Below, one piece after another: positions 1 through 12,185 of a stretch of 64,000 nucleotides of DNA (positions are counted from its first letter, which is position 1; each line of letters begins with the position of its first letter). Location: assembly GCA_025056215.1 (NCBI GenBank), contig JANWWC010000001.1, positions 682,001 through 746,000 on the forward strand, read 5' to 3'. The position numbers and the translations under genes were made by a program. Under the pieces are notes generated by a model. The model ran no database searches. It was not told the origin of the DNA and saw nothing but the letters and a program-made list of their open reading frames with translations. This stretch comes from Cytophagales bacterium. Its GTDB lineage: Bacteria > Bacteroidota > Bacteroidia > Cytophagales > Flammeovirgaceae.

Positions 1-119
1 AAATACACTTATTTTTGATATTTTCTTTTTCTTTCTTTAAATTTTTTCTTTTATTATTGCATAGCTTTTCAAGAATTTTCTGATGTCTTTGAAGTTGAAT
101 ATTTTTGTATTTAGAACAC

Positions 120-1694
120 ATGAAAACAAATTTTCTTTTCATTATTGCTTTTTTCGCTTATTTTATTGCATATTCCAACAACATACAAGTAACTAATGTA
201 GGAATCATCAATCAAAATACCACCTTAGATTTTTCCATGATACGCTTCGATATATCATGGCAAAATTCTTGGCGCACTTCTAATTTAGAAAGCAACTGGG
301 ACGCAGCGTGGGTATTTGTCAAGTACAGAAGAAAATGGTCAAACGAGTGGTTTCATGCTTATTTGCACAATACTGGGCATTCTGCTCCGAGTGGATGTAC
401 TCTTCAACCAGGGCTAATGAATACAAGTGCATCTTTCGATTCGATTACCAACCCTGCCGTAGGTGTTTTTGTATATCGCTCTTCTGACGGAATCGGAAAT
501 ATCAGTTTTAACAACATCCAATTGCGTTGGAACTACGGTGTAAACGGTTTAGCAGATTACGATAGCGTAGAAGTGTGCGTTTACGCGATTGAAATGGTGT
601 ATATTCCACAAGGTAGCTTCTACGTAGGCGATAACGATATGTTAAACAATTCCACATCATCAGGAAGATTTCGAAGAGGAGATGCTGATTTGCCTTTTCA
701 AGTGACATCGGAGGCAGCTCTGACTATTAACAATACATCCGCCACAGAACTGTGGGGAACCTCTACTTCAGGAACTAACACTATCGGAGGAAGTGGCACT
801 TTGGCAGCAAGTTTTCCCAAAGGGTATGGAGCTTTTTATATTATGAAATACGAGCTTTCTCAGTATATGTATAAGGAATTTTTAAACAAACTTACTCGAA
901 CTCAACAGTCTTCAAGAACTTTTATATCTGTTGTTGGTAATTATCATTGTAACTCAGGCGGCGGATGTACTTCTATTCAAAATAGAAACGGGATTCGTTT
1001 GATAAGTGACCCAGGAGGTAGCCTACCTCGCGTCTTTGGAAACGATTTGAGTGGTAATCTAACACCAGACGAATCCAATGACGGTCAGTACATCGCTCAT
1101 AATTGGACAAGCAACGACGATTTATTTGCTTTTGCAGACTGGTCAGGACTTCGACCTTATACAGAACTAGAGTACGAAAAAGTATGTAGAGGAACTTTGG
1201 TTCCTTTAGCCAATGAACGTCCGTGGGGAAACACGAACCAGACAACAGCAACAGGTATTACAAATCCTGGGCAAACTAATGAAATTGCTTCTCCTACAAG
1301 TGCCAATATCGTTTTAGGAAATGCTCCTTCTGTGCAAGGTCCTCTTAGAAGTGGAAATTTCGCAAGAGCTTCTTCAGACCGAGAACAAGCAGGCGCTGCC
1401 TATTACGGCGTGTTAGATATGGGAGGAAATCTTTGGGAGCTTATCGTTTCAGTAGGAGTACCAACTCACAGAACATTTCAAGGAAATATACATGGCAACG
1501 GTAACTTAAATGCTGCCGGTAACTCGGATGTAAGTGGATGGGCTCCTTCTCTATGTTATAGAGGAGGTTCTTGGGGGAACACACTGCCTACTACCATTCA
1601 CCATACATCCGATAGAACATTTGCAAGCAGTGTGAATCCTAACAATATTCGCTACAGTAGTGTAAGCATTCGTCTCGCAAGAACAAGCCCTTGA
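120..1694 (+). CDS. Secreted FGE/SUMF1-fold protein, copy 1
   Basis: Predicted exported protein of 524 residues. The first ATG after a short AT-rich leader gives a clear signal peptide (about residues 1-20); a TTG further upstream adds only a few residues. Residues 20-150 form an N-terminal domain rich in aromatic residues that the next gene shares. From about residue 155 it follows the formylglycine-generating enzyme (SUMF1/EgtB/PvdO) fold, with GLRPYTELEYEKVCRG near 342, GGNLWEL, RGGSW near 480 and the terminal RLAR. The two copper-binding cysteines that true FGE enzymes carry after RGGSW are absent, so a structural or binding role is likelier than catalysis; GldJ and GldK of the gliding machinery use the same fold. 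A CxxGGGC pair sits in an insertion near residue 285. Function not known. Confidence 0.8.
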   Translation: MKTNFLFIIAFFAYFIAYSNNIQVTNVGIINQNTTLDFSMIRFDISWQNSWRTSNLESNWDAAWVFVKYRRKWSNEWFHAYLHNTGHSAPSGCTLQPGLMNTSASFDSITNPAVGVFVYRSSDGIGNISFNNIQLRWNYGVNGLADYDSVEVCVYAIEMVYIPQGSFYVGDNDMLNNSTSSGRFRRGDADLPFQVTSEAALTINNTSATELWGTSTSGTNTIGGSGTLAASFPKGYGAFYIMKYELSQYMYKEFLNKLTRTQQSSRTFISVVGNYHCNSGGGCTSIQNRNGIRLISDPGGSLPRVFGNDLSGNLTPDESNDGQYIAHNWTSNDDLFAFADWSGLRPYTELEYEKVCRGTLVPLANERPWGNTNQTTATGITNPGQTNEIASPTSANIVLGNAPSVQGPLRSGNFARASSDREQAGAAYYGVLDMGGNLWELIVSVGVPTHRTFQGNIHGNGNLNAAGNSDVSGWAPSLCYRGGSWGNTLPTTIHHTSDRTFASSVNPNNIRYSSVSIRLARTSP

Positions 1695-1716
1695 TTTTTA
1701 CTAAAAACATAGATGT

Positions 1717-3279
1717 ATGAGAAAATCATTTTTACTCATTTATTTTTTCTCTTTCTTATGCTCAGCTAATAATATTCAAATTAACAATGTAGCTGTGGGA
1801 GGGCAAAATTTAGCGCTTAAATATACACTTGTTCAATTTGATATATCTTGGGAAAACTCTTGGAGAACTTCTACTTATGAAAGTAACTGGGACGCTGCTT
1901 GGGTCTTCGTAAAATATCGCAAAAAATGGGATACGCAATGGTTTCATGCTTATTTGCACAACAGCGGACATAACGCACCCTCAGGTTGTACCATTACACC
2001 TGGACTTGTGAACACGAGCGCTGCATTCGATTCTATTAATAATCCTGCTGTAGGCGTTTTTATTTATCGCTCTTCCAATGGAATTGGAAACATAAGCTTT
2101 AACGGCGTCCAATTGCGTTGGAACTACGGTGTAAACGGTTTAGCAGATTACGATAGCGTAGAAGTGTGCGTTTATGCAATTGAAATGGTATATATTCCAC
2201 AAGGTAGTTTTTTTGTAGGTGATAACGACATATTCAATAGTTCTACTTCTTCAGGGCGGTTCCGAAGAGGAGACGTAGATTTGCCTTTTGAAATCACATC
2301 AGAAGCAGCCATCTCGATAGGAAACACATCCTCCACTCAATTATGGGGAACCTCTACTTCAGGAACTAACACTATCGGAGGAAGTGGCACTTTGGCAGCA
2401 AGTTTTCCCAAAGGGTATGGAGCTTTTTATATTATGAAATACGAGCTTTCTCAGTACATGTACAAAGAATTTTTGAATAAGCTCACTCGAACTCAACAAG
2501 CTAACAGAAGTCCTGTTACTATCGTAGGAAACTATCACTGCGGTGGTGGCGGAGGATGTGCTACCATTCAGAACAGGAACGGCATTCGTCTTATGAGTGA
2601 TCCTGGCGGGACGCTGCCGAGAGTTTTTGGAAACGATTTTAATGGAAATAACACAGAAGGAGAAGCAGGCGACGGGCTTCATATTGCTTGTAATTGGGTA
2701 AGCGCAGACGATATACGCGCATTTGCGGATTGGTCTGGCCTACGACCTTATACAGAACTTGAATACGAAAAAGTTTGTCGCGGACCTTTGATGGTAGTTT
2801 CGAATGAACGCCCTTGGGCAACTACTAATCAAACTTTTGCTACTGGTATTGTGAATCCAGGACAAGACAACGAAATCGCATCACCTTCGAGCGCCAACCT
2901 AGTGTACAATAACCATGCAAGCGTACAAGGGCCTTTAAGATGCGGAAACTTTGCGCGCGCCTCTTCTAACAGAGAAGAAGCAGGAGCTGCTTATTACGGT
3001 GCTTTAGACATGGTGGGAAATCTTATCGAGTGCATCGCATCCGTTGGGGTTACCGCCCATCGTTCTTTTCAAGGTAATATTCATGGAAATGGTGTCTTGA
3101 ATACTAGTGGAAACACAGATATCACTGTATGGCCCTCTTCATTTGGTTTAAGAGGAGGAAGTTGGTCTACTACTGCCTCCTTACCTCATACGTCCGATAG
3201 AAATTTCGCTAGTTTCGAAATAACAGGAAATACAAAATACAATTATGCTTCAATCCGATTAGCTAGAACTCAACCGTAG
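1717..3279 (+). CDS. Secreted FGE/SUMF1-fold protein, copy 2
   Basis: Tandem paralogue of the preceding gene, 22 bp downstream, 520 residues, with its own signal peptide (about 1-18) and the same two-part build: an N-terminal aromatic-rich domain and an FGE/SUMF1-fold domain with GLRPYTELEYEKVCRG, a C-x5-C pair in the same insertion, RGGSW and terminal RLAR. Again no cysteines follow RGGSW, so no FGE-type metal centre is expected. Most of the gene differs from copy 1 at many synonymous sites, but two blocks (2108-2174 and 2344-2456) are identical to it, suggesting gene conversion. It lies 5 bp from the T9SS repeat protein, so the three genes probably form one transcription unit for surface or secreted proteins. 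Confidence 0.8.
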   Translation: MRKSFLLIYFFSFLCSANNIQINNVAVGGQNLALKYTLVQFDISWENSWRTSTYESNWDAAWVFVKYRKKWDTQWFHAYLHNSGHNAPSGCTITPGLVNTSAAFDSINNPAVGVFIYRSSNGIGNISFNGVQLRWNYGVNGLADYDSVEVCVYAIEMVYIPQGSFFVGDNDIFNSSTSSGRFRRGDVDLPFEITSEAAISIGNTSSTQLWGTSTSGTNTIGGSGTLAASFPKGYGAFYIMKYELSQYMYKEFLNKLTRTQQANRSPVTIVGNYHCGGGGGCATIQNRNGIRLMSDPGGTLPRVFGNDFNGNNTEGEAGDGLHIACNWVSADDIRAFADWSGLRPYTELEYEKVCRGPLMVVSNERPWATTNQTFATGIVNPGQDNEIASPSSANLVYNNHASVQGPLRCGNFARASSNREEAGAAYYGALDMVGNLIECIASVGVTAHRSFQGNIHGNGVLNTSGNTDITVWPSSFGLRGGSWSTTASLPHTSDRNFASFEITGNTKYNYASIRLARTQP

Positions 3280-3284
3280 TTACA

Positions 3285-4385
3285 ATGAAACTATATTTCG
3301 GGACGGTTTTCTCAATCTTGGCAATTCACTACTCGTATGCCCAGAACAACGCTATTTTTTACGGAGGAGAAGGCAAAGGAGAATCGCTATTTTGTTATTC
3401 TCAAGCAAATGCTGTTTTAAATAATTCTATTTTTTTAGGTGGAGAAAGCGAAGGAAGCAATGTGTTTTGCTATCAACAATCTAATCCAGTACTTAATAAC
3501 AACATTTTCATAGGAGGAAATTCTATTGGAGAGCGCGTTTTTTGTTATGAGCAAGATAACGCAACTATCAATAATAGCATTTTTAAAGGGGGAAACGCTT
3601 CTGGAAGTAGAGTATCGTGCTATGAGCAATTAAATGCCATTCTAAACAACAACATTTTTATAGGAGGAAACTCGATTGGAGAACATGTCTTTTGTTATGA
3701 ACAATTAAGTCCAGTTCTTAACAATAGTATATTTATCGGAGGAAATTCTATTGGTGAAATTGTGTTTTGCTATGAACAAGACAACGCTATTATCAATAAT
3801 AATATCTTTAAAGGAGGAACCTCAGCAGGGTTTGCTAGAAGTTGCGTTGGTACGCTGGAGGCTGTCCCCTTGCCTATCCAAGTCTTGATATTTGAACTTA
3901 TTGAATTATTTCCTAAAGTGCATCTTTATTGGAGGGTATCATCTGTAATCAATACCGAATACATTGTAGAAAAAAGCTCAAATGGCATCGAATGGAACGA
4001 AATTGGTACTTTAAAAGGCAATTCATTCTCTTACCACTTCACTGATTCTCTTTCTCATGAAGGAACATTCTACTATCGCTTTAAGTATCGCGATGAAAAA
4101 TCTGCACTTGTATACTCACCAATCCGAAATGTATATTATTCTGTTGCGAACACATCTGAACATCATGCTTTAATATATCCTAATCCTACTAACAGCGAAT
4201 TTTTTGTAGTTACCTCTTCTTCTCACTATGAAATAGAACTTATCAATTCGTTAGGACAAATAGTTTACAAAATCGAAAATGCTACTTCTGTAAATGTTAA
4301 TGAGTATCCGAATGGAATTTATACTGTAAAGATAACCTTCCGCGACGGAGTTTCCCTATATCGTAAGATTTTAATCCAAAAATAA
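3285..4385 (+). CDS. Secreted cysteine-repeat protein with T9SS sorting domain
   Basis: Protein of 366 residues with a signal peptide ending near AQ at residue 20. Residues 21-187 are seven units of exactly 25 residues, pattern NNxIFxGGxxxGxxxFCYEQxN, each with a cysteine at unit position 17 (residues 37, 62, 87, 112, 137, 162, 187). A linker region (about 195-285, starting LPIQVLIFE and containing VEKSSNGIEW) resembles the module that often precedes sorting domains in Bacteroidota. Residues 295-366 are a type A T9SS C-terminal domain (YPNPTNSEFFV, then NGIYTVKITF and a basic tail). It should cross the outer membrane through the type IX system and become surface-anchored or released. The repeat may be a beta-solenoid or disulfide-bearing stalk; that is inference. 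Confidence 0.82.
   Translation: MKLYFGTVFSILAIHYSYAQNNAIFYGGEGKGESLFCYSQANAVLNNSIFLGGESEGSNVFCYQQSNPVLNNNIFIGGNSIGERVFCYEQDNATINNSIFKGGNASGSRVSCYEQLNAILNNNIFIGGNSIGEHVFCYEQLSPVLNNSIFIGGNSIGEIVFCYEQDNAIINNNIFKGGTSAGFARSCVGTLEAVPLPIQVLIFELIELFPKVHLYWRVSSVINTEYIVEKSSNGIEWNEIGTLKGNSFSYHFTDSLSHEGTFYYRFKYRDEKSALVYSPIRNVYYSVANTSEHHALIYPNPTNSEFFVVTSSSHYEIELINSLGQIVYKIENATSVNVNEYPNGIYTVKITFRDGVSLYRKILIQK
3345..3845 (+). repeat. Seven tandem 75-bp coding repeats
   Basis: In-frame tandem repeats of 75 bp inside the T9SS repeat protein, starting at 3345, 3420, 3495, 3570, 3645, 3720 and 3795 (the last is partial). Copies differ at many third positions, so they are old. Units 2-3-4 resemble units 5-6-7 in order: endings NPVL/SPVL, DNATI/DNAII and the KGG...SC form in units 4 and 7. 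This points to a 225-bp higher-order duplication. Confidence 0.85.
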
Positions 4386-4431
4386 ATCTTTACTATTACA
4401 AAGAATGTTAAACGAAATTGAAATATAAAAT

Positions 4432-4450
4432 CTCTTAAAGTCTCTAAGAG
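4432..4450 (-). terminator. Likely terminator of the gldB operon
   Basis: Inverted repeat CTCTTA / TAAGAG with a 7-nt loop, overlapping the last codons of the leftmost minus-strand gene. Read on the minus strand it is followed by a T-rich stretch (ATTTTATATTTC). The stem is short and AT-rich, so it is only moderately convincing. It lies between two convergent transcription units. Confidence 0.4.
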
Positions 4451-4785
4451 TTACTTGATGAAGATACTTTGCGCTGCTCACTCCAATAAGCAAACAATTT
4501 ATTTTTAAGATACTCTAAAAGAAGGATTCCGATATTTTTTTGTATCCATTGCCATACAATAGAAGAGGATGGCTGATATTGAACTTTAGAAGAATGGAAA
4601 TTTTTGTCTTTTTCACTACCAAAAAAAAATTGAAAGACAAAATAAGCTACTAACCCTGCAATCAAAGAAATAGCTACAACTTTGAGCACACGAAGGATGC
4701 TAAATTCTAATTTTGCTATATTCTCAAGAAGTTGCTCTGTTAACTCTTGTTGTCTTGCTATGATGTTTTTTTTCGTATTATTCAT
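4444..4785 (-). CDS. Small membrane protein, last gene of the gldB operon
   Basis: Protein of 113 residues, not assigned to a family. The chosen ATG overlaps the end of the previous gene by 8 bp (ATGAATAA), which suggests translational coupling; a longer reading would run further into that gene. It has a lysine-rich amphipathic N-terminus (about 1-28), one strong membrane segment (about 34-54, ending in FVFQFFFG), a polar linker and a second weakly hydrophobic stretch near 78-95. The pairing with a holin-like membrane protein suggests a small inner-membrane complex, but no function can be read from the sequence. Confidence 0.65.
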   Translation of the reverse strand: MNNTKKNIIARQQELTEQLLENIAKLEFSILRVLKVVAISLIAGLVAYFVFQFFFGSEKDKNFHSSKVQYQPSSSIVWQWIQKNIGILLLEYLKNKLFAYWSEQRKVSSSSNS

Positions 4786-5143
4786 AAAATTGATCTTCGA
4801 AAAGCATTTTTTCAACAATTCGGCGCATAAGATTACGGAATGTCGACCTGAATTTAAAAAATATCCCCCAAAAAACTATAAATAAAAGCGTCACCACAGC
4901 AAAGCCGACGTAACGCGGAATTTGCCACACATCGCTAATAAAAAAAGCAATTGTAAAACAAGCGAACAAAAAAGCAATAGCAAGAGTTCCTAATAATACG
5001 AGAAGTAAAAAAAATACAGCTAAGAAACGGGCTACACTTTCTTTAAGTTCAATTTTAGCAAGTTGAGCATATAAATAGAGCAATTCGCGCAATTGTTCAG
5101 CAATTTGAGTAAGAAAGCGCACAATAAAAGATTGTTCTCTCAT
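4778..5143 (-). CDS. Phage-holin-like (Phage_holin_3_6) membrane protein
   Basis: Protein of 121 residues with an N-terminal amphipathic helix (about 1-35, LYLYAQLAKIELKE), two adjacent membrane spans (about 40-65 and 75-97) and a basic C-terminal tail. This layout fits the PF07332 'phage holin family' proteins, which in non-phage contexts are small inner-membrane proteins of unknown role. It overlaps gldB by 4 bp (ATGA) and the next gene by 8 bp, so it is surely part of the same operon. There are no phage genes nearby, which argues against a real holin. Confidence 0.65.
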   Translation of the reverse strand: MREQSFIVRFLTQIAEQLRELLYLYAQLAKIELKESVARFLAVFFLLLVLLGTLAIAFLFACFTIAFFISDVWQIPRYVGFAVVTLLFIVFWGIFFKFRSTFRNLMRRIVEKMLFEDQFYE

Positions 5144-6180
5144 GAATTAGGCTTCTTAGGCTTAAATTTGGATTGTTCGAAAATATATTTTGCATTTTTT
5201 TCTTCCATGAGGGCTGGAAGAGTCATCGTAGAATTTCGCTTCATATAGGCTTTGATGATTTCCCATGCTAACCATCTTCCCACTCTTCCAGGGCATTCAT
5301 CGCCAATTTCAAGGGTTTTAGGGCGCTCACCGACGTATTTATTTTTAATAAACTCTTGTGTTTCATAAAAAAGCCCGTAGCCATTTTCGCCTTTATACTC
5401 CACAAAGTGCGACCATATTTGGTCCACATTATAACGACAAGCCAGCAATTCGGCGCGCGTATACCCTAAAATTAATGTATCGGGCACGTATGGCAAAATT
5501 TTTTTTGTAAAATAATAAGACTTTCCATAAAAAATCATGTCTGCTAACAGTGTTTTGTCTTGGAAATCGTAAGCGTTGTATTTAGCCGAAAGCATAATAA
5601 TAGTAGTCGGAACGATCGTTTGAGGCGAATATCGTTTAAGAATATACATCGGAATTTCAGGAGGATAGTACATCATCTTCTTTTCTCCTAAAAAATACTC
5701 CAAGCTAATTACCATCATATCTTCCGCTATAAAAATATCTCGCCCAAAGCCGAGAGCTCCATAGCCTGAAACAATCGTAAAAATTTGAGGCTGTTTAAAC
5801 TCAGGATAATAATATTTTAAAAACCGAAACGCCTGCTCAAATTCTTTTTCTATATCAGAAATAGAAGAAAAAGTTTGTTGTACATCTGCTAAAAGAGTAT
5901 CTGTTTGAGGAAAAGACCTAAATTGAGTCATTACTTTCCATAAAGTAGAAGTCTCGGCGGGTGTAAAACTGCGCACATACCTCTGAAATAAGGGATTTTC
6001 TTCTAAATATGAAGAAAACTCTTGCTCTGTTTTTAAAGCAAAAATTTCTTTCTCCCATCGTCGAATACTTACCTTTTCTACTTGTACGTTCGAAACATCT
6101 GGAATGGGTTCTTCATCCGCTGTTTCAGAGCATGAAAACATGCTCATCGTTGTCAAAACAATTAGTAGTAGTTTTTTCAT
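5140..6180 (-). CDS. gldB: Gliding motility lipoprotein GldB
   Basis: Lipoprotein of 346 residues: signal sequence MKKLLLIVLTTMSMFSC with the lipid-accepting cysteine at about 17. The body matches GldB in length and in family stretches such as GYGALGFGRDIFIA near 145, the central MPMYILKRY-like region (here IPMYILKRYSPQ), and the C-terminal ECPGRVGRWLAWEIIKAYM followed by IFEQSKFKPKK. GldB is needed for gliding in Flavobacterium and is found across Bacteroidota, including non-gliders, so it supports but does not prove motility. It starts 2 bp after the TolC-type gene and overlaps the following gene by 4 bp. Confidence 0.85.
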   Translation of the reverse strand: MKKLLLIVLTTMSMFSCSETADEEPIPDVSNVQVEKVSIRRWEKEIFALKTEQEFSSYLEENPLFQRYVRSFTPAETSTLWKVMTQFRSFPQTDTLLADVQQTFSSISDIEKEFEQAFRFLKYYYPEFKQPQIFTIVSGYGALGFGRDIFIAEDMMVISLEYFLGEKKMMYYPPEIPMYILKRYSPQTIVPTTIIMLSAKYNAYDFQDKTLLADMIFYGKSYYFTKKILPYVPDTLILGYTRAELLACRYNVDQIWSHFVEYKGENGYGLFYETQEFIKNKYVGERPKTLEIGDECPGRVGRWLAWEIIKAYMKRNSTMTLPALMEEKNAKYIFEQSKFKPKKPNS

Positions 6181-6182
6181 AT

Positions 6183-7658
6183 TTAAAACACAATAGATTT
6201 CCCGGCGTAAAAATCTAAAATCTTCATTTTAAACCAAAAGTCAAATTCAGCTTGTAAGAGCTGATTTTCGGCATTTAACAAATTGATACGAGCATTTTGC
6301 CATTCTACCAAAGGTAAAGCGCCTGCTTCATAACGATTGGTTATCATTTGAAAGTTTTGTTTAGTAGCTTCTACTCGCATACGATTCGAATGATAGGTTT
6401 TGTGAGCTAATTTTACATCGCAATAAGCGCGTTCAATCTTTTGTTGAAGTTGTAAGCGAACTTGTTGTTCATTCAAATCGGCTTGCTTGGCTCGAAGTTG
6501 AGCAGCAACAACATTAGCTCTATTTCGGTAACGAGTAAAAATAGGAATTGTAAGGTCAAAACTAAGAGAGCGCCGTAAACTTTGGTCGAGTTGATCAAAA
6601 AAAGTAAACGGTTCTAATATAGGAAGGGTAATGGCTCTATCTTGAAAGACAGGTATGGGAGTTTGGTTGCTATCAAAAAAATATCCTATAATTTCTCTAT
6701 TAGTCACTGTCGAAAATCCAGTTAATTTTTGTTTTTGTGCGCTAGAGTAAAGCGTAAATAATCCGGCAGAAAATGAAAGCGTAGGCAAAAAAGCAGCTTT
6801 TGATATGTGTACGCTCGCATATGCACTTTTTTTCTGCCATTCAGCACTATGAATTTCGGGCATTTCTCGAACTGCTACTTCATAGATTTCTTTAGGAGTC
6901 TGAATAGTCAATTGCTCTGGAGGCTCAGGAAAGGTAGGCAATTCTATTGCAAAAGGATCGTGAAAAGGAATGTGCAAAAGTTGCCTGAGTTCTAACAAAG
7001 AAAGTTCTAAATTGTTTTCTGCATTCACAAGATTAGTTTCGTCGATAGCCAGTTGAGCGCGAAGTTCGGTTTCATGAACTATAGGTAGCGAGCCAGAGCG
7101 CACCAACGATTGAGTGCGAATCAGTTGATTTTCAGTAATCTGTTTTTGGTTCCGTAGGTTCTGAAGTTGTTTTTCTTGTAAGGCGATTTGTAAAAAAAGG
7201 GTTGCGATGCTAAGCGACAACTCATTCTTAGCTTTTTGAAGAGCGTATCTCGAAGATTGAACATTAGCTCGATTTTGCTGAATCGTATAATGAAGTCGAA
7301 AGCCATTGAATAAAGCAATAGTAGAGCTTATCGAGAAATTATTAGATTGAATTCGTCGGTTAAGAAACTGATTAGTAAAAGGGTCAATAGAGCGTCCCCA
7401 ATTATAAGCGTGAGAGGCTCGTCCGTTGATATCTGGCATTTTTTCGTAATAAGACTGCTTAAGTTGGTTTTCAGCTTGTTGAACATCTATTTCGGCGAGT
7501 TGAATAGAAATATTGCGTTGTAAAGCGTATTCTACACATGCCTGGAGCGTCCATTTTTCTTGGGCAAACACACAAAAAGAAAAAAAACAACCTGCAAAAA
7601 GTTTGCTTATCAACAACAATTTTTCATAAAAATGAAATATTTTACACTTAGAACACAT
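6183..7658 (-). CDS. TolC-family outer membrane channel protein
   Basis: Protein of 491 residues from the ATG 10 bp after the methyltransferase gene; a longer in-frame extension would lie inside that gene and is rejected. The signal peptide (about 10-33) ends in FCVFAQ. The rest shows the two related halves of TolC-type proteins: WTLQACVEYALQRN at the start, long alpha-helical heptad regions (about 170-260 and 380-480), and a repeated YEAGALPLVEW / VRSGSLPIVHE turn. It should form a trimeric outer-membrane channel used by an efflux pump or type I exporter. No pump subunits are in this operon, so its inner-membrane partner must be encoded elsewhere. Confidence 0.85.
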   Translation of the reverse strand: MCSKCKIFHFYEKLLLISKLFAGCFFSFCVFAQEKWTLQACVEYALQRNISIQLAEIDVQQAENQLKQSYYEKMPDINGRASHAYNWGRSIDPFTNQFLNRRIQSNNFSISSTIALFNGFRLHYTIQQNRANVQSSRYALQKAKNELSLSIATLFLQIALQEKQLQNLRNQKQITENQLIRTQSLVRSGSLPIVHETELRAQLAIDETNLVNAENNLELSLLELRQLLHIPFHDPFAIELPTFPEPPEQLTIQTPKEIYEVAVREMPEIHSAEWQKKSAYASVHISKAAFLPTLSFSAGLFTLYSSAQKQKLTGFSTVTNREIIGYFFDSNQTPIPVFQDRAITLPILEPFTFFDQLDQSLRRSLSFDLTIPIFTRYRNRANVVAAQLRAKQADLNEQQVRLQLQQKIERAYCDVKLAHKTYHSNRMRVEATKQNFQMITNRYEAGALPLVEWQNARINLLNAENQLLQAEFDFWFKMKILDFYAGKSIVF

Positions 7659-7668
7659 ATCAATCTTT

Positions 7669-8883
7669 CTAATTTTTTGCAAGAAGTGCCATGTAAAAAC
7701 CATCAAAACCAGATTGAGCGGGAGAAATGCTAATTTCTTCTTGCAAAGTAAAAAATTTACCTTGCTGTGTATGCAAAAAAGTTTGAATTTGCTTTTCATT
7801 TTCAGAGGGCAGTATGCTGCAGGTAGCATATACCATTTTTCCACCTGATTTTACAATAGGACTGTATTTTTGAAGAATTTCTTGCTGAGTTTTTTGAAGA
7901 TTCTCTAAAAAAGAAGGCTGAAGTTTCCATTTAGCATCCGGATTTCGACGCAGAACGCCCGTTCCAGAGCAAGGTACATCGAGTAATAAGCGGTCTGCCG
8001 TGTTATAAAGCCTTTTAATAATTTTGAAAGAACGAATTAACCTCGTTTCGATAATACTAACTCCTGCTCTTTTAGCGCGCTTTTTCAAATTTTGCAATTT
8101 ATGTTCTTCCACATCCAGCGCAATAATAGAACCTTTGTTTTTCATTAAAGCGGCGATGTGCAGTGTCTTGCCCCCTCCTCCCGCACAAGCATCTACTATA
8201 CGCATACCGCTCTGAGGCGAAAGCAGATGCGCTACGCGTTGAGAAGACGCATCTTGTATCTCAAACCAACCTTTTTGAAAGCCCTCCAAACGAAATAAAT
8301 TTTGGCGTCTCAGAATTAAAATAGCTTCAGGACAACCTTGAATTAGTTGATAGTCAATGTTTTGACTTTTAAAATAATCAAAAAGCTGCTCAAGACTAGT
8401 TTTTAAAAGATTAGCCCTAATTACTAAAGGAGCAATTTGATTGAGACTTTCTAATTCTACAAGCCATCTTTGTTGTAGTTCCGAAAGTCCGCGCTCAAAC
8501 AACCAATCTGGCATAGAAAAGCGAACTGCTAATATATTTTGAGCTTGTTGTTTTTTTTGCGCAATAAGAGAGGGGCACAAGGTTTTCCATTCATCCCAAG
8601 AAGGCAATTCTTTATTCTGCAAAAGGAACCAAACTCCCACGAGTTGAAAATAATTTTGGTTCGGATTTGAATAATCGGTATCAGCACAAAAACATATAAG
8701 TCTCCACCAACGAACCATATCGTAAAAATTTTCAGCAATAAAAGCGCGGTCACGGCTTCCCCATTGCTTGTTTTTAGCAAACAATTCTTCTAAAGCACGG
8801 TCAGCATACTGATTGTATTTGAATACTTTCTCCAGAGTTTGAGCGATTGCTAGTATTAAATTCCTATGAAAAAGTTTTTTCAT
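7669..8883 (-). CDS. RsmB/NOP-family rRNA (cytosine-C5) methyltransferase
   Basis: Protein of 404 residues, started at the ATG; a TTG two codons upstream is less likely. The N-terminal third is a helical, NusB-like region. The C-terminal half is a SAM-dependent Rossmann domain: VDACAGGGGKTLHIAALM (motif I, near 233), ALDVEEHKL, then DVPCSGTGVLRRNPD and YATCSILPSEN, which carry the two cysteines used by m5C RNA methyltransferases (release and catalysis). It probably methylates 16S rRNA, as RsmB does at C967, though the exact position is inferred. It is the first gene of the five-gene minus-strand operon that includes gldB. Confidence 0.85.
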   Translation of the reverse strand: MKKLFHRNLILAIAQTLEKVFKYNQYADRALEELFAKNKQWGSRDRAFIAENFYDMVRWWRLICFCADTDYSNPNQNYFQLVGVWFLLQNKELPSWDEWKTLCPSLIAQKKQQAQNILAVRFSMPDWLFERGLSELQQRWLVELESLNQIAPLVIRANLLKTSLEQLFDYFKSQNIDYQLIQGCPEAILILRRQNLFRLEGFQKGWFEIQDASSQRVAHLLSPQSGMRIVDACAGGGGKTLHIAALMKNKGSIIALDVEEHKLQNLKKRAKRAGVSIIETRLIRSFKIIKRLYNTADRLLLDVPCSGTGVLRRNPDAKWKLQPSFLENLQKTQQEILQKYSPIVKSGGKMVYATCSILPSENEKQIQTFLHTQQGKFFTLQEEISISPAQSGFDGFYMALLAKN

Positions 8884-9006
8884 TCGCAAAATTCTGTTCT
8901 TTTTTAAAGCGAACTCTCTTGCAAGGTAACAAAAAGGATCGTAAAGTTAACATTGAATTGTTTTCTTACAAGTCAATTCTTTTTGTACTATGCAAACGGT
9001 AAGCTC

Positions 9007-9437
9007 TTGAATCACAAAAGGAACAAGTTAGGTCCTAATGATTGGGTTTGTAAAGCACATGTATTCTCAACGTGATAAGCCCCAATAGCATGAAAATCAG
9101 CTCTTTTAGAAGTAAGCATCTTCTACACGTGAAAACTTTTATTCCATTCATTCAGGGGTATCCGCTCTGTAAAACTCGTATCTTGTGTATACATCTTAAA
9201 ATTCTCTATCGTTAGTCCTTTAAAAGTACCAAAAAGAAGAAGAAATGCTTTTGGCTAGCTTCTGGGCTCATGTCTGCAAGCTGACTACTTGTAGCACTTT
9301 CTGCATAGCAAACAGGCTTAAACATACAAATGCAAGGTCTTATAGTGTTACATTTGTAACATTGCTCATGTGCAAAGTGTAATAATATCGCCTATTGTTC
9401 CGCATTTAAAACAATACGTATCAGAAGACTGGCAAGC
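9007..9437 (-). pseudogene. Decayed coding remnant with a CHC2-like zinc-finger fragment
   Basis: No intact gene lies between 8884 and 9537, but the minus strand keeps protein-like pieces in shifting frames. At 9372-9419 it reads TYCFKCGTIGDIITLC, like the end of a CHC2 zinc finger of DnaG-type primases. Further along, one frame reads ESATSSQLADMSPEASQ and, after a frame change at a poly-T tract near 9230, another reads FKGLTIENFKMYTQD, then FTERIPLNEWNKSFHV, a stop, and ADFHAIGAYHVEN. Several frameshifts and one in-frame stop make it non-functional. CHC2 proteins are common on Bacteroidota mobile elements, so this may be the scar of one. The family call is tentative. Confidence 0.35.
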
Positions 9438-9537
9438 ATAAACTTAACAATACATGTACGCAATAACTTTGCAATATCTTTTTGTTACAAACAAAACTTT
9501 TCCTGTTTCTTTGTTTTATCAATTTTTGCTCAAACAA

Positions 9538-10650
9538 ATGATACTAACAAAAACAGAATCCACCTGTAAAAATAAAATCAAAATTTTTAGAAAAATAAGA
9601 TGGTTGTTGGTCTTAGGAGTGTTAATAAATGCATGCCAATCAGCAGAAAACTCTTCTTCGTACAATCTCAAAACACTGCCTGTGCGTTATGCGCAGCGCT
9701 TTTCAATTGAATACAACGAAAATTTTCAATACCTCATGACAATACGCTTAGAAAATGATAGTATTTTATATAAACTTCCCACAAATGTCTCTAAAATAAT
9801 TTGCGCTTCTACTACTCATGTTGCAATGCTACACGTGTTAGGAGCAGATAGCTGCCTAATTGGTATTTTAGGAGGCCAATATTTATGTAATCCGTACCAG
9901 AGAAGAAGATATGAAACAAAACAAATTCGAGAACTTGGCAGTATTTCTCAGCCCGATTTAGAATCTATTTTGATGCTTCGCCCCGATGTAATTCTATTAA
10001 GTTCACGCCCTGAAGAACTACCCGCTACATGGAAACTGATTCAACAAACAGGAATTCCTATAATTTTCATAGCAGAATGGTTAGAAAATACGCCTTTAGG
10101 AAGATGTGAATGGCTCCGCGTGATAGGCATCATGACCAATAAACTTGCACGTGCAGATAAATTTTTAGATAGCGTTGCAGCTATTTATCAGCATCTTTGT
10201 TTGAGTGTTCAGAAAGATTCTTCTAAAAATTCTCCTACGGTAGTTGCGGGCATGGGCTATCAAGGCGTTTGGTACGTTCCTGCTGGAAGAAGCTACGTGG
10301 CTACACTTTTGAAAGATGCTGGAGCTCATTATCCTTGGGAAAACATCGGCGGAGAAGGCAGTTTATCGCTCGATTTTGAAACATTTTACGCAAAAGCTCT
10401 TCACGCTGATATTTTAATCAACGTCGGAACATGCCGCTCCATTGCAGAATTGATCGCTCTCGATAAACGACTTGCTTTTTTAAAAGCTGTTCAACAAAAA
10501 AAAGTTTATAATAACGACCTTCGAATAACAGATAACGGAATTAACGAATATTACGAAACTTCTGTTGTAGCACCTGAAAAAATACTTTCTGACCTCATTC
10601 ACATACTCCAACAAAAAGATTCCTTATATTATTACAGAAAGTTATTTTAA
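9538..10650 (+). CDS. ABC-transporter substrate-binding lipoprotein (iron/cobalamin type)
   Basis: Protein of 370 residues from the ATG followed by a lysine-rich N-region; an upstream alternative adds a hydrophobic stretch that does not look like a signal. The hydrophobic core LLVLGVLINAC places a lipid-modified cysteine at residue 33. The body follows the periplasmic binding protein family PF01497 (BtuF/FhuD/FecB-like): IICASTTHVAMLHVLGA, a DLESILMLRPDVILLS lobe motif near 140, a long linker helix (NKLARADKFLDSVAAIYQHL), and GMGYQGVWYVPAGRSY in the second lobe. Ligands of this family are ferric siderophores, haem or cobalamin; the sequence does not decide between them. No permease or ATPase gene is nearby, so it is an orphan. 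Confidence 0.75.
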   Translation: MILTKTESTCKNKIKIFRKIRWLLVLGVLINACQSAENSSSYNLKTLPVRYAQRFSIEYNENFQYLMTIRLENDSILYKLPTNVSKIICASTTHVAMLHVLGADSCLIGILGGQYLCNPYQRRRYETKQIRELGSISQPDLESILMLRPDVILLSSRPEELPATWKLIQQTGIPIIFIAEWLENTPLGRCEWLRVIGIMTNKLARADKFLDSVAAIYQHLCLSVQKDSSKNSPTVVAGMGYQGVWYVPAGRSYVATLLKDAGAHYPWENIGGEGSLSLDFETFYAKALHADILINVGTCRSIAELIALDKRLAFLKAVQQKKVYNNDLRITDNGINEYYETSVVAPEKILSDLIHILQQKDSLYYYRKLF

Positions 10651-11063
10651 GGCTCGTCACTTTCGTCTTCTTCTGTTGTCTTTGGAGAGAATTTATTTGC
10701 CTTTTTAGAGCGACGACGCGCTTTTGAAAGAGATTCCCATTTTTTGAGTTGTTCATTTGTAAGAATTTCGCGAAAAGCCTGACGGCGCTTCTGACGCAAA
10801 AGGCGCAACTCAGATTGTACCTCTTTTTTCTCTTTAGTGTATTTTTCTAAGATTTTATTTTTTTGCTCCCAAAAATCGAGCTGTACTTGTCGGATTTTAT
10901 TAACCTGCTCATCAGAGAGTTGCAGTTCACTTTTCATTTTTTCAGCAAACCGTTCGGCTCGCTGCGAAAGTGATCGACCTGCTTGATTGTCATTTTCTTG
11001 AGATTGTCCGCGACTTGCTATAAATAAAAAAATACACCCGATTCCCAAAAATAATTTTTTCAT
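10647..11063 (-). CDS. Exported Spy/CpxP-like helical protein
   Basis: Protein of 138 residues with a signal peptide (about 1-20, ending RGQS). Residues 30-110 are a charged helical region with two LTxxQ-like elements, LSDEQVNKIRQVQ and LTNEQLKKWESL, spaced as in small periplasmic chaperones or sensors of the Spy/CpxP type. The tail is strongly charged (basic, then acidic). It overlaps the stop of the convergent lipoprotein gene by 4 bp and the upstream small exported gene by 4 bp (ATGA), so the two minus-strand genes are coupled. The precise role is unknown. Confidence 0.6.
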   Translation of the reverse strand: MKKLFLGIGCIFLFIASRGQSQENDNQAGRSLSQRAERFAEKMKSELQLSDEQVNKIRQVQLDFWEQKNKILEKYTKEKKEVQSELRLLRQKRRQAFREILTNEQLKKWESLSKARRRSKKANKFSPKTTEEDESDEP

Positions 11064-11389
11064 AGAGCTTTACTAAAATAATGGTATTCTCTAATAATAG
11101 GGTTACAAGCGCACTTTTGTTGTACAAAGGGCAAATCTCTTTCTGCTTCTCGATAGGAATAATACGATTTTTTGTACAAAACTACATTAATATCAGTAGA
11201 AACTAACCTGACAGTATGCAAAACAAAATCTTCAGACGGCCTTAAGACAAGTTCATCAGAGCGAACTTCTATTTTATAAATCTGACCTTGAAATACATTT
11301 TTTATTGGCGTAGAATTCTTACACGGTAGTTTTTCTTTGCAAAAGCTCTCAAAATTTAGCAAGAAGCTTATTAGCAAAAGAATGCTCAT
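11060..11389 (-). CDS. Small exported protein of unknown function
   Basis: Protein of 109 residues with an N-terminal hydrophobic segment (MSILLLISFLLNF) that would serve as a signal peptide. The mature part contains cysteines near 17, 23, 91 and 93 (the last two as KCACNP) and a beta-rich centre. No family recognised. It overlaps the Spy-like gene by 4 bp, so the pair is probably translated from one message. The start is the only ATG that gives an export signal. Confidence 0.5.
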   Translation of the reverse strand: MSILLLISFLLNFESFCKEKLPCKNSTPIKNVFQGQIYKIEVRSDELVLRPSEDFVLHTVRLVSTDINVVLYKKSYYSYREAERDLPFVQQKCACNPIIREYHYFSKAL

Positions 11390-11524
11390 GGTCTTTTGAG
11401 TTATTTTATAATACTTTGATACGATATTTTGATAGATAAGTTCTTAATCTTCCAACTTTTTAAGGTAAGTGCAAAATTGCTAATAAAAGTTAAAAAGAAA
11501 CTTCAGAAAATATAAAAGTTTTCT

Positions 11525-11532
11525 TAGTTTTG
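11525..11532 (+). promoter_or_regulatory. Promoter -7 element and repeated operator candidate upstream of tetR
   Basis: TAGTTTTG matches the Bacteroidota -7 consensus TAnnTTTG and lies 23 bp before the tetR ATG; no clear -33 TTTG was found. The sequence ATAAAAGTT occurs three times around it (11483-11491, 11512-11520, 11545-11553), and the last two copies extend to ATAAAAGTTTT. These flank the -7 element and are candidate binding sites for the TetR protein, by analogy with self-regulated efflux operons. Confidence 0.45.
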
Positions 11533-11555
11533 TAACGACTTTCAATAAAAGTTTT

Positions 11556-12185
11556 ATGAGTCAAATAGAAACTAAAACAAGAATTCTACAAAACGCTCGC
11601 GAATTGTTTCGACGCAAAGGAATTCGCAGCGTAAGAATGGAAGATATTGCTAACCATTTAGGAATTTCAAAAAAAACACTCTATCAGCATTATAAAGATA
11701 AAAAGAATCTCATTATAGCAATTGCAGAATACGATATAGAAAGTCACATCAATTTTTTGCGAAGTGTTCGGTCGGAATCTATCAATTCGATAGAAATTAT
11801 TTTGCGGACAAGCGAACATTTCTTTAAGGATATTGCTAACATCAATCCAGCTATGATAAGCGACGTACAGCGTCTTTACCCTGAAGCATGGGAAAAATTT
11901 AAAGAAAAGAAGAATGAGCTTTTTACAATGAGTCTCGTTCAAACACTTTCAGAAGGCAAACAACAAGGCTTGTTCCGCTCCGAGATTCATCCTGAAATTA
12001 TGGCGAAATTAAGGCTAGCCCAAATCGAGTTAGCTTTTAATTCTGAGATATTTCCATTTGATAAGTACAATTTCTTAGAAGTACACAAGCAATTTTTCTT
12101 TCACTTTTTGTGGGGCATATGCACGGAAAAAGGTCTTAAACTTATGGAAGAATATTCTAACAAAAATTTGTTTTATACAGTTTAA
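11556..12185 (+). CDS. TetR/AcrR-family transcriptional regulator
   Basis: Protein of 209 residues. Residues 5-50 are a typical TetR helix-turn-helix: ILQNARELFRRKGIRSVRMEDIA, then LGISKKTLYQHYKDKKNLI. The remaining 150 residues are the helical ligand-binding and dimer domain, with no family-wide motifs. It is 23 bp upstream of a complete RND efflux gene set on the same strand. A TetR protein in this place normally represses its own operon and releases DNA on binding a pump substrate; that is inferred from context. Repeated ATAAAAGTT boxes upstream may be its sites. Confidence 0.9.
   Translation: MSQIETKTRILQNARELFRRKGIRSVRMEDIANHLGISKKTLYQHYKDKKNLIIAIAEYDIESHINFLRSVRSESINSIEIILRTSEHFFKDIANINPAMISDVQRLYPEAWEKFKEKKNELFTMSLVQTLSEGKQQGLFRSEIHPEIMAKLRLAQIELAFNSEIFPFDKYNFLEVHKQFFFHFLWGICTEKGLKLMEEYSNKNLFYTV

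Follow-up and report, generated by a model that had tools for sequence, protein, structure and literature searches.

Why does an exported protein place one cysteine in every 25 residues, and what do these cysteines do? The question is raised by the last gene of a probable operon of three, at positions 105–4385 of the window, as we call the whole 64,000-nucleotide stretch of Cytophagales DNA that was analyzed. The genes lie on the forward strand, separated by gaps of 22 nt and then 5 nt. The first two encode exported proteins of the FGE fold, and the third (3285–4385) encodes a repeat protein of 366 residues. According to the original prediction, the cysteines could form a metal ladder or a disulfide stack along a beta-solenoid, and the FGE-fold neighbors might be partners of the protein. 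We come to a different view of the first proposal and develop the second. Judging from co-variation between the two kinds of protein, we put at roughly 0.65 the probability of the following: that the repeat units serve as docking sites for the FGE-like ‘heads’ encoded upstream, that position 17 of the unit faces residue 151 of the head, and that in the subfamily with cysteine at position 17 (‘Cys17’) the contact is sealed by a disulfide bond.

The repeat protein and the proteins encoded upstream

The repeat protein begins with a signal peptide of typical look, assigned by inspection (residues 1–20; 3285–3344). This is followed by seven 25-residue units (residues 21–195; 3345–3869), a fibronectin-III-like linker domain (about residues 196–288, 3870–4148; match to 2ibb, Z 9.7, 2.8 Å over 93 residues) and a T9SS type A sorting domain (residues 297–364; 4173–4376). 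The sorting domain scores above both curated cut-offs, with 42.9 bits for PF18962 (cut-off 27) and 42.6 bits for TIGR04183 (cut-off 23), and is matched structurally by 8glk_D (Z 9.6, 2.1 Å over 71 residues), so that the protein is, as had been predicted, an exported T9SS protein. Our reading of the frame also agrees with the prediction of seven units with cysteine at position 17 of each. The cysteines are residues 37, 62, 87, 112, 137, 162 and 187 (codons at 3393, 3468, 3543, 3618, 3693, 3768 and 3843), all six spacings are exactly 25, and there is no other cysteine in the entire protein. Seven cysteines scattered at random over 175 residues would fall one per unit in a single phase with a chance of 2.8e-11, a figure that assumes random placement, and shared residues are expected anyway in related repeats. 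Asn1, Asn2, Ile4, Phe5, Gly7, Gly8 and Gly12 are, like Cys17, invariant in all seven units.

Tandem Repeats Finder reports the repeat as a 75-nt (25-residue) unit over 3495–3823. Unit 7 is degenerate, with 10–12 of its 25 residues identical to those of other units. Units 3 and 6 differ at 1, 3 and 14 sites in the first, second and third codon positions, respectively. Third positions are thus far more diverged, which implies that the units are not the product of recent expansion and that selection acts on them at the level of the protein. A higher-order unit of 75 residues, also predicted, is only suggestive: the pairing of units 2–5, 3–6 and 4–7 is indeed the best among the 15 possible pairings of units 2–7, but the identity at a lag of three is equaled by 10% (protein) or 13% (DNA) of the possible orders in which the seven units can be placed.

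The two FGE-like proteins are 73% identical. Copy 1 (529 residues, 105–1694; PF03781, 44.1 bits) comprises an N-terminal domain followed by the FGE fold, and copy 2 (520 residues, 1717–3279; PF03781, 38 bits) is the one from whose initial methionine we number the residues of the family. The AlphaFold2 model of copy 2 (mean pLDDT 87.4, pTM 0.90) has the FGE fold, its matches including 5nxl (Z 19.1, 3.3 Å over 233 residues) and EgtB, and the prediction of FGE-fold neighbors is borne out by these and by the PF03781 matches. Down to a threshold of E 1, Pfam gives nothing for the N-terminal domain, and no T9SS tail was found on copy 1. Residue 151 of copy 2 is a cysteine (codon TGC, 2167–2169), as is its counterpart in copy 1, Cys158 (codon TGC, 576–578). 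The catalytic, copper-binding cysteine pair of FGE, which we take to lie near the GG[S][W/Y] motif, is another matter: among 121 FGE-like sequences examined, 108 possess GG[x][WYFLHA], and none of the 108 has C-x(3-5)-C near it. FGE catalysis by the upstream proteins is rejected on the basis of the pair missing by this pattern.

A two-gene cassette across genomes

Loci were gathered by the FGE-like protein alone, whatever its neighbors. The N-terminal domain of the FGE-like protein, used as the query, is present in 25 of 395 genomes sampled across the phylum; with the domain of a relative, the figure is 67 of 395 across the class. A scan of contigs gave at least 539 FGE-like relatives, from which 78 loci were retained. 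Because some loci lie on the same contigs, the 189 FGE-like rows reduce to 175 distinct genes once sequence duplicates are removed. A gene for a product with ‘GG’ units lies downstream of 121 of these 175 within 4.5 kb, and within 400 nt in 108 instances. For the other 54 the script recorded no partner, some being at contig ends and some having partners that the script overlooked. With a looser pattern the motif is found in 77 of 100 next genes versus 76 of 886 other ORFs, six tandem FGE-like genes being excluded. This linkage, together with the co-variation described below, supports the suggestion that the FGE-fold neighbors are the partners of the repeat protein, and we see in this partnership our chief result.

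The partner product has a signal peptide and then, at its mature N-terminus, a unit of the form ‘A-Q-[FY]-x-G-G-x-x-x-G’. The number of ‘F-x-GG-x-x-x-G’ units per partner ranges from one to sixteen or more (one further row was scripted as 22), and the units are spaced mostly 20–32 residues apart with a mode of 25. A single unit is present in 52 of 114 distinct partner ORFs and more, commonly 2–8, in the rest; the counting patterns stop at gaps of more than 60 residues, so that partners with domain-separated units (L074, L133, L135, L146 and L155) score as single. A PNP-type tail occurs, by a simple pattern, in the last 120 residues of 52 of the 88 partners that are complete in their locus. In 13 members scanned, the units are not covered by any model of Pfam or NCBIfam, and the recurrent matches are to the T9SS tail. 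The genome of the window itself has a second cassette (L088; contig C9, about 295993–297895), in which the FGE-like gene has Arg151 and the partner is a 129-residue frame that has one GG unit and whose mature part is free of cysteine.

In the partners with domain-separated units just named, whole domains stand between the GG units. These have a cysteine near position 19, followed some 25 residues later by another with which it probably forms an internal disulfide, and the position-19 cysteine is accompanied by Lys or Arg at residue 151 of the FGE-like protein.

Across the family, position 17 is most often Ser, Cys, Thr, Gly, Asn or Ala, and hydrophobic residues are rare there (0.11). Multi-unit members with Cys17 include L091 (5 units), L092 (2), L125 (3), L132 (4), L157 and L167 (5 each), L093 (15 of 16 units, by script) and L200 (3 of 4, the first having Ser). 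Single-unit members with Cys17 are L095, L096, L120, L203, L208 and L209. Retention of Cys17 by these single-unit relatives makes it a trait of the subfamily, for which no ladder is required. Unit spacing among Cys17 members runs from 23 to 30 residues, which makes the exact 25 a feature of the unit length of the window protein, and their cysteines are often odd in number (7, 5, 5, 5, 3).

Record titles among the matches listed are mostly of Bacteroidota and Ignavibacteria, and some of the MAGs listed are labeled Omnitrophota, Brocadiaceae, Chloroflexi, Gemmatimonadota or Proteobacteria. GG partners were read at L111, L136, L149, L153 and L160; if the bins are correctly labeled, the pair may not need the T9SS. 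No description of the cassette turned up in the literature searched, in which the coverage of subscription journals was thin.

Co-variation of position 17 with residue 151

Cys151 is present in all 15 of the Cys17 rows, and in none of the 107 others that have a residue at this place (126 rows in all). Among the 3,327 column-letter tests made over 507 columns, none gives a stronger association, and no other column reaches 15/15 versus 0. Lys255 (FLN-K; codon in copy 2 at 2479–2481, computed from the Met numbering) comes second, with 14 of 15 Cys17 rows versus 1 of 109 others. Leu54 and Glu55 (1876–1881 in copy 2) and Ser147 are likewise associated with Cys17. These four residues track Cys17 in part through shared ancestry, and possibly they make up the remainder of a putative interface.

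Kinship was taken into account with a tree from which the associated columns had been masked. Both traits require eight changes on it, and all seven supported independent contrasts are concordant (sign test, p 0.016); the co-variation thus amounts to about seven or eight changes, on a tree whose support is SH-aLRT only. Lys255 is concordant in five of the seven contrasts. An earlier set of 107 rows had 93 with neither cysteine, 14 with both and none mixed, with 6/6 contrasts concordant (p 0.031). L103, which lies inside a Cys clade, has Ser151 together with mostly Ser17, and retains Lys255. At residue 151, Lys, Arg or Gln is encoded by 128 of the 175 FGE-like genes, and residue 17 is seldom hydrophobic; both positions, therefore, are probably exposed. 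Joint gain and joint loss of cysteine at two exposed positions are what one expects of an intermolecular bond, and not of a ladder within the repeats.

Several rows were settled by hand. The first pass gave 10/11 versus 1/101, with two exceptions that were resolved by reading the sequences: the FGE-like gene of L091 is split by a stop and has its Cys in the first piece, and the partner of L093, unassigned in that pass, carries Cys17 units. The raw scripted table was 12/0/4/105, and its four rows of ‘Cys17 without Cys151’ (L105 twice and L109 twice) were reset to no Cys17, because the domain that follows the units contains an additional GG. Partners assigned by hand were those of L132, L125 and L120 as Cys17, and of L103 and L099 as not. 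The repeat gene lies upstream of the FGE-like gene in L132 and L099, and about 2.9 kb downstream of it in L125.

For two loci, L203 and L208, the order of observation was reversed. Cys151 was seen first, a Cys17 partner was predicted to exist in the genome before this was read, and the partner was then found. It had been expected elsewhere and was directly downstream in each case, with a single degenerate unit in which VG replaces GG (‘VGNDDGFSFSC’ and ‘VGNDGGFSFSC’). In total there are 17 distinct Cys151 genes, spread over 15 loci, and every one of them has a Cys17 partner. Five genomes contain cassettes of both types, each cassette being matched within itself; these are cases that were noticed, and no systematic sample. 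They are the genome of the window (window versus L088), SJ452 (L091 versus L100 and L238), AlinenLipids_bin-7249 (L125 versus L099), G484 (L203 and L208 versus L214) and G615 (L132 versus L246).

Charge points the same way. Both positions are charged in 10 of the 134 FGE-like genes with a readable partner, and the signs are opposite in nine: Lys or Arg151 with Glu or Asp17 in seven, and Glu151 with Arg17 in L238 and L250, whose partners have Arg17 throughout or in the majority of their units. In L133 the two signs are equal. Fisher tests give 0.022 and 0.0044, having been devised after the fact and with kinship ignored. Where residue 151 is acidic, five of seven rows have no basic residue at 17.

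Docking, its rivals and known systems

The ladder that was originally proposed would make each unit a rung of a beta-solenoid, with the seven cysteines either joined in a disulfide stack or binding metal. It draws on the exact spacing in the window protein and on a predicted fold. AlphaFold2 does model the repeat protein as a beta-solenoid in which each unit makes one rung of 25 residues, at a mean pLDDT of 77.3 (69–90 by block in the repeat region) and a pTM of 0.48, and the top structural match is a phage tail fiber (7xy1_A, Z 10.1, 3.2 Å over 162 residues). For repeats, a Z under about 13 may reflect merely a common arrangement, by the caution attached to the matching tool, and nearly all of the matches listed cover residues 195–366, so that the repeats themselves are barely tested by them. 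AlphaFold2 is also reported to give confident yet unrealistic beta-solenoids for repeat sequences (PMC11795689). The model is thus weak evidence for a solenoid. About half of the family is single-unit or has its units separated by domains, and for those members a solenoid is impossible; an extended chain of separate docking sites is at least as likely as a solenoid. The ladder itself we consider distinctly improbable. Single-unit members keep Cys17, the number of cysteines is often odd, the spacing varies among Cys17 members, most of the family has Ser, Thr, Asn or Gly at position 17, and Cys17 tracks a cysteine in another protein. Homologues lacking the cysteines, which the original prediction had named as counting against it, make up most of the family, though not the close subfamily.

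Other explanations accept the co-variation. Cys17 and Cys151 might travel together without touching, as marks of lineage, or through a shared third protein or the same modifying enzyme. Cys151 is indeed clustered on the tree (8 changes versus a mean of 15.5 with shuffled labels), and further residues also separate the Cys17 class from the others. Against this are the concordance of every supported independent contrast, the five genomes in which cassettes of both types are matched within themselves, and the absence of a second FGE column with so clean a division, and we think the explanation unlikely. Alternatively, the FGE-like protein might act on the repeats as a modifying enzyme, oxidizing Cys17, for instance, as true FGE does the cysteine of sulfatases; this would suit the fold, the adjacency of the genes and the repeated cysteines. 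The motif recognized by FGE is C-x-P-x-R, but what comes after Cys17 is Y-x-Q or V-G-T. The majority of partners, moreover, lack Cys17 altogether, and the catalytic pair is missing, by pattern, from every motif-bearing sequence. This possibility is very improbable.

The reading that we prefer is docking. One FGE-like molecule would bind to each 25-residue unit, with position 17 of the unit sitting against residue 151 of the head. In the Cys17 subfamily this contact would be closed by an intermolecular disulfide, and in other subfamilies it would be a polar contact, or in certain cases a salt bridge. Anchoring would fall to the repeat protein, made up of signal peptide, units, fibronectin-III-like linker and T9SS sorting tail, which could display up to seven FGE-fold, C-type-lectin-like heads on the cell surface. 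The T9SS tail on the repeat protein, with none found on the heads, is what suggests that several heads hang from one surface anchor. Were the units stacked as rungs of a solenoid, there would be no room for a 55-kDa head on each. What we show is the cassette, the loss of the FGE catalytic cysteine pair and the co-variation; we infer that head and unit touch, that a disulfide joins them, that each unit takes one head, and that the heads are displayed at the surface and bind ligands. Two of the usual oxidants of such bonds, DSBA and VKOR, had no Pfam-model match in the genome of the window. A broader proposal, to which we give somewhat less than even odds, is that of a widespread cell-surface display system in which modular scaffolds with tandem GG units carry arrays of non-catalytic heads of the FGE/C-type-lectin fold. 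Cognate specificity would depend on one facing pair of residues, 17 and 151, whose contact changes in evolution among disulfide, salt bridge and polar, so that one genome could contain several cassettes that exclude one another.

If docking is correct, a job would be assigned to a very common and unannotated pair of genes, and the loss of catalysis in many exported FGE-like proteins would be explained. The unit would be a short, genetically encoded docking element convertible to covalent attachment, and the code of residue pairs would make the assignment of partners in genomes directly testable. The cassette would also be an extracellular addition to FGE-fold disulfide partnerships of the GldK type. 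GldK, from the same phylum, has the FGE fold, and its Cys343 is reported to be disulfide-bonded to SprF and PorG (PMC12635249); the FGE fold of PorK is described as a structural hub (PMC12421860). The likeness lies in a non-catalytic FGE-fold hub with an intermolecular disulfide to a second protein (PMC12635249, PMC12421860), and extends to structure, the model of copy 2 matching 9p6h_B with Z 17.9 (4.9 Å over 243 residues). The differences are that GldK and PorK form periplasmic rings or tracks, whereas in the cassette at least two small exported proteins accompany a repeat protein that ends in a T9SS tail, each repeat has a single cysteine, and the cysteines occupy other positions. No gldL, gldM or gldN was seen by reading positions 1–12000 of the window and the upstream contig (C9:672000–683000), unlike the gldKLMN/porKLMN cluster.

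Further likenesses are looser. Within the PF03781 FGE family, which includes EgtB and PvdO (5hha_B, Z 17.9), the window proteins share the fold and score above the PF03781 cut-off, but lack the catalytic pair by pattern and possess an extra N-terminal domain. In scaffoldins, repeated modules on an anchored scaffold carry many copies of partners through cohesin–dockerin docking. The resemblance, repeated docking modules on an anchored scaffold, is one of functional analogy only, since the cassette has other folds, short units of 20–32 residues and an optional covalent lock, and no cohesin or dockerin domain is among the Pfam matches listed for the three window proteins. The cassette would be a scaffold with docking repeats, a known kind, and there is a fair chance that it is something more distinct. 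Curlin repeats are strand–turn–strand units of 22–25 residues, rich in Gly, Asn and Gln. The likeness to these is judged by description; the repeat protein of the cassette has a T9SS tail rather than curli secretion, and Pfam gave no curlin match with an E of 1 or below. The head also resembles the fold of Treponema denticola variable protein 1 (2y3c, Z 16.5, 3.5 Å over 219 residues), a product of a diversity-generating retroelement. Such an element was considered here and rejected, there being no PF00078 match at E 0.01 in the genome of the window, in a search whose controls were positive in 3 of 14.

A few loci depart from the common pattern. A threonine-dehydratase-like gene directly follows the FGE-like gene in L077, L078, L079 and L080, replacing the GG-unit gene. 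One Ignavibacteriae MAG (L116, L121, L130, L144 and L147) has several cassettes, with FGE C-terminal regions that are very variable, and the same is true of G118 with its loci of the L118 type. In L139, L235 and L243, the N-terminal domain of the FGE-like protein contains a long insertion of the ‘VTVNTTSGLRVGMPV’ type.
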